From a virus, in IMG/VR virus record IMGVR_UViG_3300029787_000178, positions 1 through 33,785 of that record: a DNA stretch of 33,785 nucleotides; one strand, 5' to 3'. Positions 6,235-16,120 of the stretch are shown piece after piece. How positions within the stretch are numbered: position 1 is the stretch's first letter; every line of letters starts with the position of its first letter. The position numbers and the translations under genes are program-made. The notes beneath the pieces are model-generated. The model searched no databases and was not told the DNA's origin. It saw nothing but the letters and a program-made list of their open reading frames with translations.

Positions 6235-7083
6235 TTAAACTCCACAATGACCGCTGCAATCGTTATTAAACATATCCAGCTGATCTTCATCAGGATTAAA
6301 ATTAACTTCATCTAAAGGTTTACAACTACGATGAGTGTAATTTTTCATCTTTGGATCTTTACTGATGTCTCTAATTTTTTTATCAAACTCAACTACGTCT
6401 TTAAATTCATCTGGCTTATTAGTTTTTAAATCATGCCAATATTTATCATCATGGAAAGGACAACAGAGACACGCTGATTTTTCTGGTAAAGGAAATTTAT
6501 TTTTATTCATCCAGTCAATACAATCTTGTCTTGACATATTTGCTTCAATTAAAGGATGTCTATTTAAAATATACTTATCTCTAGCTGGTTTCATTCTTTG
6601 TATTTCGTCTGTAGAAATACCTATCCATTGCTCTACATACTTATCTTTGGGAAATCTTTTGCCTTTAGCAACTCCGCACAACTCTCTTATCTTTTTTTTT
6701 ATTACTAATATTTTATATTCTGAGGTGCATTGCCTACGGATCATGCCTTTTTTGCCAGTTATAGTGTTTTGATTATAAAACGGAGCAACTACAAAATTCG
6801 TAGTACCTTTTGCAGCCAACATATCATCTTTAATATTTCCTTTTTGAACTCTAAATACTGGATAAGGTAAAATGTTTGTTAAATAGTTTAAGTAAAGCAT
6901 TGTAGATTTACTCTCATAACCAGGATCAGCAAATATTGCGCAATCAACTGGTGGAAAATCTCCTTTTGCAGCCATCAAAGCCATTGTTGTAGATTGAACT
7001 CCAACACCAAGACTTAAAACTACCATTTGTTTTGATCTATTTGGATCTATTTTTGTGTTAGGAAATTTAATTATTGTCGCCAT
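6235..7083 (-). CDS. PP-loop / PAPS-reductase-like (DndC-related) enzyme (282 aa)
   Basis: The N-terminal half is an adenine-nucleotide alpha-hydrolase fold: SLGVGVQSTT at residues 24-33 is the modified PP-loop (SGGxDS-like), followed by IFADPGYES (50-58) as in PAPS reductases. Then come RRQCTSEYK with a conserved Cys, QWIGISTDE, the CLCCPFH cluster near residue 205, and a C-terminal CSGHCGV. The cysteine sets could hold an Fe-S cluster, as in DndC-type and thiolating enzymes. It probably activates a substrate as an adenylate, but the substrate is unknown: sulfate reduction, tRNA thiolation or DNA modification are possible. No dnd partners are in the window. The zinc-ribbon micro-gene overlaps its start by 17 nt. 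Confidence 0.85.
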   Translation of the reverse strand: MATIIKFPNTKIDPNRSKQMVVLSLGVGVQSTTMALMAAKGDFPPVDCAIFADPGYESKSTMLYLNYLTNILPYPVFRVQKGNIKDDMLAAKGTTNFVVAPFYNQNTITGKKGMIRRQCTSEYKILVIKKKIRELCGVAKGKRFPKDKYVEQWIGISTDEIQRMKPARDKYILNRHPLIEANMSRQDCIDWMNKNKFPLPEKSACLCCPFHDDKYWHDLKTNKPDEFKDVVEFDKKIRDISKDPKMKNYTHRSCKPLDEVNFNPDEDQLDMFNNDCSGHCGV

Positions 7084-13821: not shown

Positions 13822-14769
13822 ATGAACAAGCTTAAACTACTAGATCTATTTGCTGGAATAGGAGGCTTCTCTTACGGTTTAGAACAAACACAAGGTTTCG
13901 AAACTATAGCCTTTTGCGAGAAGGACAAGTTTTGCCAACAAGTTTTGCGTAAGCATTGGAACGATATTAAAATTTATGACGACATCAGACACATCAAAGG
14001 ATCTGAAATTAAAGCAGAAATCATTACATCTGGATTTCCGTGCCAGCCTTTCTCCGTTGCTGGAAAGCAACGAGGAACAGATGATGACCGTTTCCTCTGG
14101 GATGAAACTATTAGAGTTGTTGCCGAAACAAAACCAAAATGGTTTATTGGAGAAAATGTTGACGGTCTTGTTAACATCCAAGAAGGTAAGGTCTTGCAGC
14201 AGATACAAAAAGATTTGGAAGCCGAGAGTTTCCAAGTCCAATGTCTTGTTATTCCAGCTTCAGGCATCGGTGCGTGGCATCAAAGAAAAAGGATCTGGAT
14301 TATTGGTTACTCCAACAGCAACGCAAATGCCAAAGAGAAGCAAAGCAGCAATGGACCGGAGAATAGCATTTCGAAAGAGTATAGGTCGAAAGACAGTTCC
14401 GTTCAGTTCTCTAGAGGAACAACTAACAACTCTTTATCCAACTCCGAGAGCTTGCGATCTGGAAGGTGGAGTGGTGAAGAATGTAGAATTAAGGAACGGA
14501 AGTTTCAGCAGACTGAACAAAAAAGGAGTTCGTTTCGGAGTGAAGTTAAAAGATGCAGTTCACAAGATGACACCTCAAGCTGGTGGCAAACTCAATCCAA
14601 ACTTTGTGGAGTTCCTAATGGCATATCCGCAGAATTGGACAAAGATCGAGCAAACAGAATTAAATCACTTGGAAACGCAATCGTTCCAGAAATCGCAAGA
14701 GAAATTGGACAATCAATACTCATTGCAGAGGATGTATCGAACACCGACAGCGATGGACACTCAAGATGA
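13822..14769 (+). CDS. DNA (cytosine-5) methyltransferase, Dcm type (315 aa)
   Basis: It transfers methyl from S-adenosylmethionine to C5 of cytosine. Motif I is DLFAGIGG (8-15), motif IV GFPCQPFS with catalytic C74, motif VI ENV (111-113), motif VIII QRKR (154-157), and motif X SLGNAIVPEIA near 282-292, preceded by WWQTQSKLCGVPNGI. The region between, about 163-250, which should be the target-recognition domain, is Ser/Asn/Arg-rich and low in complexity. In the same stretch the +1 frame encodes a different conserved sequence (see the next entry). Likely role: protecting phage DNA from restriction. No restriction enzyme partner is seen. No ribosome site is obvious before the ATG. Confidence 0.92.
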   Translation: MNKLKLLDLFAGIGGFSYGLEQTQGFETIAFCEKDKFCQQVLRKHWNDIKIYDDIRHIKGSEIKAEIITSGFPCQPFSVAGKQRGTDDDRFLWDETIRVVAETKPKWFIGENVDGLVNIQEGKVLQQIQKDLEAESFQVQCLVIPASGIGAWHQRKRIWIIGYSNSNANAKEKQSSNGPENSISKEYRSKDSSVQFSRGTTNNSLSNSESLRSGRWSGEECRIKERKFQQTEQKRSSFRSEVKRCSSQDDTSSWWQTQSKLCGVPNGISAELDKDRANRIKSLGNAIVPEIAREIGQSILIAEDVSNTDSDGHSR

Positions 14770-15154
14770 AGTTTTACATTTTGCAGCTAAATGGATTAAA
14801 GGAAAAGTTAAAAGAGCCTCTAATAGTCAAGTACAAAAAACATTATCTATGGATGTTGCTATTGATTATCTTAATGCTAATCCTCATTTAATAAATCAAT
14901 ATGATATACCTTTTAAATATAGACCTAAACTACCAGAGAAATTAGAGTTTATTGCTTATCTAAAAGGCAATACATCAATTAAAGAATTAATATCTAAAAC
15001 CGATATTACTAAAACTAAAATTGAACATTGGTTCAGAAAAGATAAATGTTTTTCTTATCCATCTATAACAGATTGGAATTTAATTAAACCACATTTAAAA
15101 GAATTAAAATTTAATTACGAAATGACTTATGAAGAAGATAAGGATTGGAAATGA
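14303..15154 (+). CDS. Overlapping frame: methylase-associated protein, alternative start (283 aa)
   Basis: This frame is +1 to dcm. The shown start is a TTG at 14303 with AAGGA nine bases upstream; ATG 14327 is an alternative, and a frameshift from dcm near 14281-14300 is a third. Up to 14660 it encodes a pattern known from many phage methyltransferase-associated sequences: LLVTPTAT, YPTPRACDLEGG, then GGKLNPNFVEFLMAYPQNW. From 14770, past the dcm stop, it continues with TKIEHWFRKDKCFSYPSITD, also of conserved look. The stop overlaps the next ATG (ATGA). The last third is therefore certainly coding; how it is translated is open. Probably part of target recognition for DNA methylation. Confidence 0.65.
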   Translation: MVTPTATQMPKRSKAAMDRRIAFRKSIGRKTVPFSSLEEQLTTLYPTPRACDLEGGVVKNVELRNGSFSRLNKKGVRFGVKLKDAVHKMTPQAGGKLNPNFVEFLMAYPQNWTKIEQTELNHLETQSFQKSQEKLDNQYSLQRMYRTPTAMDTQDEVLHFAAKWIKGKVKRASNSQVQKTLSMDVAIDYLNANPHLINQYDIPFKYRPKLPEKLEFIAYLKGNTSIKELISKTDITKTKIEHWFRKDKCFSYPSITDWNLIKPHLKELKFNYEMTYEEDKDWK

Positions 15155-15339
15155 GCAAATATATCAAAGACAAATATCAGAATGTTACCGCCATCAGTTT
15201 TAAGGCATATGACAATGATTTGATTATTAATTTTACTGGCTTCGAAAGCGAAGAGGATGTCTATGAGTTTTGTGAGTTTGTATTTCATAAAATACATATG
15301 AACTCTAACTTTGGAGAAAAACCACCAACGGTCCATTAA
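15151..15339 (+). CDS. Small acidic protein (62 aa)
   Basis: I use ATG 15151, which overlaps the preceding stop as ATGA; a TTG at 15145 is less likely. The product has two strands (NVTAISFKAYDNDLIINFTG) and an acidic helix (ESEEDVYEFCEFVFHKI), a compact alpha/beta layout. No family recognised. The coupling to the frame upstream suggests that frame is translated. Confidence 0.55.
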   Translation: MSKYIKDKYQNVTAISFKAYDNDLIINFTGFESEEDVYEFCEFVFHKIHMNSNFGEKPPTVH

Positions 15340-15370: not shown

Positions 15371-16120
15371 ATGAAATTATACAATGCTGATTGCTTGTCT
15401 ATCTTGCCAAGTCTTGCAGACGAAAGCGTAGATTTAATTATTACAAGTCCGCCTTATGAAGATGTAACTGGAGCTGGATATACCGCAGTCAATAAAGATG
15501 TCTTGTTTTTAAAACTTTATTCAGAGTTTATGGATAAGGTTTTTAAAGAATATAAAAGAATTTTAAAACCAAACGGACAATTATTTTTTAATATTAAAAG
15601 TAAAACTTTAAAAAAAACTTTAAGAACTCCGCATTGGCTTGAATTTACTGACGGTTTTCAAAGCTTAATATATAAATCTTATATTATTTGGAAATATTCA
15701 GGATCTTTTGACAGTACAAAATCTAGGTTTCATTTAGATTATGAAGTTATTTATCATTTATCAAAAGGTAATGACATTTATTTGAATGAAAAATGTGGAA
15801 TTAAAGATCCTTTAAGTTCTGTTTGGTATGTTCCTCACACTATTAAAAAAGATGAGAGAGTGCATCCAACACAAATGCCAATAGCTTTAGTTGATAGAAT
15901 ATTAGCTGTTGCTTCAAAAGATGGAGATACGGTTTTAGATAACTTTATGGGTTCTGGTACTACTGGAGTTTCTGCTTTAAAAAATAATTTAGACTTTATA
16001 GGAATTGAATTAAATAAAGATAACTACGATTTAGCAAAAAATAGAATTAATGAAAATCCAAATTCCATACACGCCACGAAAGCACCAGGCGTACATACAC
16101 CAAGAATTAGACAAGTATAG
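15371..16120 (+). CDS. Site-specific DNA methyltransferase, beta class (SPPY; N4-C or N6-A) (249 aa)
   Basis: The catalytic motif SPPY is at 26-29 and the AdoMet motif FMGSGTTG at 192-199 follows it, which is the beta-class order. HPTQMPIAL (165-173) precedes it as in the family. SPPY is common in N4-cytosine enzymes but also occurs in N6-adenine ones, so the target base is not certain. The middle (70-150) holds the target-recognition part. The last 24 residues lie in the 71-nt overlap with TerL and are probably not structured. With the C5 enzyme upstream it would give the phage two methyl marks. Confidence 0.88.
   Translation: MKLYNADCLSILPSLADESVDLIITSPPYEDVTGAGYTAVNKDVLFLKLYSEFMDKVFKEYKRILKPNGQLFFNIKSKTLKKTLRTPHWLEFTDGFQSLIYKSYIIWKYSGSFDSTKSRFHLDYEVIYHLSKGNDIYLNEKCGIKDPLSSVWYVPHTIKKDERVHPTQMPIALVDRILAVASKDGDTVLDNFMGSGTTGVSALKNNLDFIGIELNKDNYDLAKNRINENPNSIHATKAPGVHTPRIRQV

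Follow-up and report, generated by a model that had tools for sequence, protein, structure and literature searches.

What is known about split C5-cytosine methyltransferases?

The closest described system is M.EcoHK31I of E. coli (YGGCCR), in which motifs I–VIII and X are carried by the large subunit and motif IX by the small one, the predicted target-recognition domain having been placed on the large subunit (PMC3404938). The gene for its beta subunit is also nested within the alpha gene, in another frame. M.AquI (CYCGRG) is likewise a two-subunit C5 enzyme, and the multi-specific C5 methyltransferases of the Bacillus phages SPbeta and phi3T carry several exchangeable recognition cassettes in one enzyme. 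In the literature that we searched, we found no description of a family of nested C5 methyltransferases. Here we consider a viral locus that appears to belong to such a family, lying in a stretch of 33,785 nt (IMG/VR record IMGVR_UViG_3300029787_000178, positions 1 to 33,785; this whole stretch is 'the window' below). We think it very likely, with a probability of roughly 0.87, that two overlapping genes here specify the two polypeptides of a single C5-cytosine DNA methyltransferase, although complex formation, activity and specificity are inferred.

How is the locus organised?

Both genes lie on the plus strand, as do all the features described in this paragraph. Alpha (the dcm gene, in what we call frame A; 13822–14769) encodes a 315-residue C5-cytosine methyltransferase bearing motifs I–VIII and X, with motif IX absent in frame, while beta (frame B, +1 to alpha; 13976–15154, from ATG 13976 to TGA 15154) encodes 392 residues in a frame that shows almost no stops and synonymous constraint in relatives. 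Beta overlaps alpha from just before motif IV (SGFPCQPFSV, 14032–14062), where it is already open, covers most of the catalytic domain and extends 385 nt beyond the alpha stop. Further downstream, frame A encodes a Ser/Asn/Arg-rich linker in place of a target-recognition domain (14308–14580), and over it frame B carries cassette 1 (TPTATQMPKRS...SLEEQLTT, 14309–14431, found also in our loci L009 and L012) and cassette 2 (YPTPRACDLEGG...KLKDAVHKM, 14435–14569), followed by motif IX (GGKLNPNFVEFLMAYPQNWTK, 14582–14644). Motif X (SLGNAIVPEIA, 14665–14697) is again in frame A, and beta ends in a largely single-coding, mostly helical domain of unknown function (14762–15151). Without beta, some 380 nt between dcm and the next gene would be empty; beta fills this gap, its TGA and the ATG of the next gene (15151–15339) sharing the letters ATGA.

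A preliminary description, made from the sequence alone, had correctly read WWQTQSKLCGVPNGI (14581–14625) and motif X in the dcm frame and, in the +1 frame, GGKLNPNFVEFLMAYPQNW (14582–14638) together with LLVTPTAT and YPTPRACDLEGG, which start at 14300 and 14435. Its placing of the overlap start at 14303 did not hold, the overlap beginning near motif IV and the +1 reading frame being longer than described. Across 69 relatives, the frame B start codon precedes motif IV, most often by 14 codons, and a Shine-Dalgarno match of at least five bases lies 3–12 nt upstream in 47 of them (with no chance control); the window's own ATG at 13976 has no clear Shine-Dalgarno sequence.

As to the neighbourhood, the adjacent gene at 15371–16120, just upstream of a terminase-like gene, resembles by eye an N4/N6 (DPPY-type) DNA methyltransferase, and a minus-strand gene at 6235–7083 looks, by eye only, like a phosphoadenosine phosphosulfate reductase-type protein.

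Are both frames under selection?

The answer is yes, and the overprinting that the preliminary description had claimed is real. Loci were chosen with motif patterns, and relatives were gathered mainly via the alpha (Dcm) protein and reduced to 69 distinct viral genes. Since our locus filter partly required frame A to be open, nothing was rested on its openness in this first set, where the openness of frame B was not demanded. Over alpha residues 60–279 of these relatives, frame B contains one stop in about 16,270 codons (in L073), compared with 1,362 in the third frame of identical codons, so that the earlier claim of a pattern beyond that of a random +1 frame held, and far above chance. Outside this stretch the density of frame B stops is ordinary, at approximately 4–19% per codon before it and 7–9% over most of the sequence after it (summed bins). 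Synonymous recoding of alpha with the codon usage of neighbouring genes, possible for the 62 of 69 genes that could be partitioned, predicts about 337 +1 stops in the catalytic part and about 228 in the target-recognition part, against one and none observed. In addition, 44 distinct bacterial loci, whose overlaps range from 46 to 67% G+C, show no frame B stop in 8,482 codons where about 253 would be expected.

The pattern of divergence points the same way. Ahead of the overlap (58%), over the catalytic part (53%) and again over motif X (57%), pairwise differences fall mainly at third positions of frame A, but in the recognition stretch (57%) and motif IX (53%) they fall mainly at first positions of A, where frame B has its third. 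In the recognition stretch amino-acid identity is 0.79 in B versus 0.59 in A, and the proposal that this part of Dcm has been shaped by the second frame therefore held. At four-fold sites where the A residue is unchanged, 0.58 of comparisons differ before the overlap and 0.49 in motif X, as against 0.34 in the catalytic part, 0.34 in the recognition stretch and 0.12 in motif IX, with disjoint bootstrap intervals for single-coded and overlapping regions; these intervals ignore shared ancestry, and related loci are not independent. The constraint at four-fold sites in the catalytic part means that B is selected there too. The two outcomes named beforehand as refuting overprinting, namely a frame broken by stops or evolving neutrally in homologues and a +1 protein without independent homologues, were not met, synonymous sites being constrained as well.

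Do the two proteins make up one enzyme?

Family searches were run separately for the two proteins. Alpha matches PF00145 (E 2.8e-54) and TIGR00675 (E 3.9e-47), with both matches ending near residue 250, and its nearest solved folds are M.HhaI and M.HaeIII, to which it is some 31–34% identical in Foldseek alignments. It meets the criteria for a C5 methyltransferase in motifs I, IV (PCQ), VI (ENV), VIII and X and in its catalytic fold; PCQ and the Ser that follows are invariant in 37 aligned alphas. Motif IX was not found in alpha's own frame and was found in beta. The AlphaFold model of alpha has a confident core, a disordered segment at residues 173–283 (pLDDT about 28–48) and an ordered motif X helix (287–311), and alpha alone aligns to M.HhaI only up to HhaI residue 177. 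The model, together with weak constraint in A, predicts that the Ser/Asn-rich recognition stretch of alpha is an open, flexible linker.

Beta matches phrog_1008 (E 2.6e-20 for the window protein), as do all 38 aligned betas, none of which gave a match in a Pfam search; searches of Pfam, NCBIfam and PDB sequences with beta yielded no match either, and Foldseek found no significant match to its model. The phrog_1008 profile is labelled 'DNA methyltransferase' although it is a profile of the beta frame, and we regard the label as misleading because the matching betas have no catalytic motifs. The conserved end of these proteins, GGKLNPNFVEFLMxYPxNW, is C5-methyltransferase motif IX, which refines the preliminary description of it as a methylase-associated segment, and consequently the frames represent two halves of one enzyme and not two unrelated proteins. 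A composite of alpha motifs I–VIII, the beta cassettes and motif IX, and alpha motif X covers positions 2–329 of 329 in TIGR00675 and 2–322 of 324 in PF00145, where alpha alone reaches only 237 and 233 and a shuffled control stops at 192 and 207, respectively. Bit scores are scarcely higher than for alpha alone, so the gain is one of coverage. In the composite's match to M.HhaI the beta motif, with its residues that are invariant in the beta alignment, falls on KLHPRECARVMGYPDSY; the requirement for a motif IX between recognition domain and motif X is thus met, by beta. Modelled alone, beta is poor over the cassettes and motif IX and better over its C-terminal 130 residues (pLDDT mostly 77–95, with one dip near 50), part of which is matched by proteins of Staphylococcus phages Alsa whose annotation reads DNA methyltransferase.

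Betas are arrays of YPTPxAxD-type units, and the window protein carries two such "PTPxA" cassettes in addition to motif IX. From 131 distinct betas we cut 367 units, using simple patterns that make the counts approximate; with a single exception, each protein yielded one to seven. Of the unit clusters, 37 turn up at least three times, and the larger ones mostly occupy more than one array position. Cassette 2, for example, sits at varied positions in L009, L010, L022 and others, and 33 of 35 residues are identical in KT997847. The latter locus (L001) shows a frame change near the start of alpha, natural or a sequencing error, and its beta, annotated as a methyltransferase, ends just after motif IX. 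That each cassette serves one DNA target is an inference, specificity being untested.

How widespread is the arrangement and how does it vary?

Searching GTDB genomes with a beta profile gave 80 loci; a strict dual-frame test is passed by 67 of these, always in the +1 frame, and most of the failures are cut by contig ends or missed by the motif patterns. In IMG/VR, 58 of 78 loci pass. Genomes with the nested arrangement are labelled Firmicutes, Acidobacteria, Nitrospirota and Proteobacteria. Single-chain relatives were not systematically surveyed, and these counts give no share of nested enzymes among Dcm homologues.

Nature has also provided variants. In L137, alpha and beta stand in tandem and are not nested, and this beta aligns with nested ones (98% probability) over a span that takes in the N-terminal part, which there overlaps nothing. 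Elsewhere (L256, L261 and others) alpha terminates directly after motif VIII, beta bears motifs IX and X, and the cassette region is riddled with stops in frame A, from which we conclude that frame A must stay open in the window in order to reach motif X. Three open reading frames at L202:542–2085 carry motifs I–VIII, the cassettes with motif IX, and motif X, respectively, while Gordonia phage Rabbitrun has motifs IX and X in the catalytic frame of a single chain. It is the tandem arrangement of L137, motif X on beta in L256 and L261 and motif X on a third reading frame in L202 that establish beta as a separate protein. L176, tried as an example of an in-frame fusion or single chain, was rejected on account of a deletion in its catalytic domain.

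Some further observations deserve mention. A stand-alone unit of 77 residues (L396:2983–3214), with one cassette and motif IX, directly follows a complete nested pair and is possibly a spare specificity unit. Five nested loci (L168, L169, L171, L173 and L174) are reported at different positions on one Roseovarius MAG chromosome (OX638333.1). L106, on a contig labelled Lokiarchaeota, has a beta close to those of marine phages and lies beside a masked stretch; contamination or a provirus is possible.

How might the enzyme work, and what else could explain the locus?

In our proposed mechanism, alpha would supply the SAM-binding and catalytic motifs I–VIII and motif X, its middle serving as a flexible linker, and beta, starting inside alpha at ATG 13976, would supply the target-recognition cassettes and motif IX. 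The two are inferred to assemble, with motif IX completing the fold, and beta would guide the enzyme to its DNA targets, each cassette probably serving one of them. The complex may then methylate phage DNA, in all likelihood to shield it from host restriction, a role that we infer from the nature of the gene and from the neighbouring second DNA methyltransferase. Selection on both frames, the motif partition, the modular cassettes and the separate beta gene of relatives are shown. Counting against the two-subunit reading is the lack of any peptide, expression, complex or activity data behind it, as are the poor beta model over the cassettes and motif IX, the lack of a fold or Pfam match for beta, composite bit scores that are hardly better, the unclear Shine-Dalgarno sequence in the window and the prediction that in M.EcoHK31I the recognition domain is on the large subunit (PMC3404938).

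A bolder reading goes further and, taken as one joint claim, is one we would lean slightly against: that this is a widespread class of methyltransferase with a specificity subunit overprinted on the catalytic subunit and exchangeable cassettes, in which cassette recombination rewrites specificity while keeping both frames open, beta serves several targets and its C-terminal domain adds a function.

Programmed frameshifting, in which motifs I–VIII and X of a single chain would be read in A and the part between them, with the recognition region and motif IX, in B, is very improbable. The A–B–A periodicity of divergence, taken alone, would look just so. However, both frames are open over the whole overlap, and a shift would require neither an open B in the catalytic part nor an open A across the cassettes; in a frameshift gene each frame should be open only up to or from the shift site, and this is not what is seen. 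In addition, B has its own upstream start codon, L137 carries beta as a separate tandem gene, and the ribosome would have to shift twice, in opposite senses.

We give as little credence to the idea that alpha is a complete enzyme with an odd recognition stretch and that beta is an unrelated overprinted protein, acting for instance in regulation or against restriction. In its favour, the alpha linker is open in all selected loci, and beta has no Pfam family and has an extra folded C-terminal domain. Against it, motif IX is missing from alpha and present in beta, the alpha linker is predicted to be disordered and is weakly constrained, and beta bears motif X in some relatives.

That one frame is a relic, an alternative raised by the preliminary description, or an artefact of codon usage or locus selection can be all but dismissed. 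The filter did partly require an open frame A, and the loci are related to one another. The first set, however, was assembled without requiring an open frame B; the recoding controls, the constraint on synonymous sites and the high-GC bacterial loci all point the same way, and frame A of similar cassettes has stops where motif X is on beta. The relic alternative fails on two counts: synonymous sites are constrained, and of well over 100 loci the great majority keep both frames open.

Why does it matter?

An arrangement reported as an exception in one E. coli enzyme appears to be common in phage and bacterial C5 methyltransferases. Annotation pipelines would call one gene of the two, or mislabel beta, so that many of the 'Dcm' proteins in databases probably represent only half an enzyme, without annotation of the recognition part. 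Because nested, tandem and three-frame forms, single chains and motif X on either subunit all occur naturally, the question of how a long overlap arises and is maintained becomes directly testable, and the cassettes offer a route to predicting and testing phage methylation specificity.

How does the locus compare with known systems?

Alpha and beta of the two-subunit reading meet the motif partition of M.EcoHK31I, a likeness that rests on this partition and not on sequence comparison. A small-subunit gene nested in the large-subunit gene, as in that enzyme, is also met, although the window beta runs past the alpha stop. A recognition domain on the large subunit is not met: the window cassettes evolve in frame B and the corresponding alpha stretch is predicted to be disordered, so evolutionary evidence supports placing the recognition part on beta in this family, with activity untested. 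Compared with M.EcoHK31I, the window beta has two cassettes (relatives one to seven) and a C-terminal extension. The M.AquI type, with motifs IX and X on the small subunit, is not met in the window, whose alpha carries motif X and whose beta carries the entire variable region, but its partition is matched by the beta-borne motif X of L256 and L261. Single-chain M.HhaI, M.HaeIII and Rabbitrun gp78 share the catalytic fold and motif set, but their motifs and recognition domain all lie within a single frame and polypeptide chain, and the SPbeta and phi3T enzymes keep their cassettes in the catalytic chain, whereas in the window they reside in an overlapping gene. What is new beyond M.EcoHK31I, as far as we have checked, is the breadth of the arrangement, the reshuffled arrays of one to seven cassettes and the folded C-terminal domain of beta.
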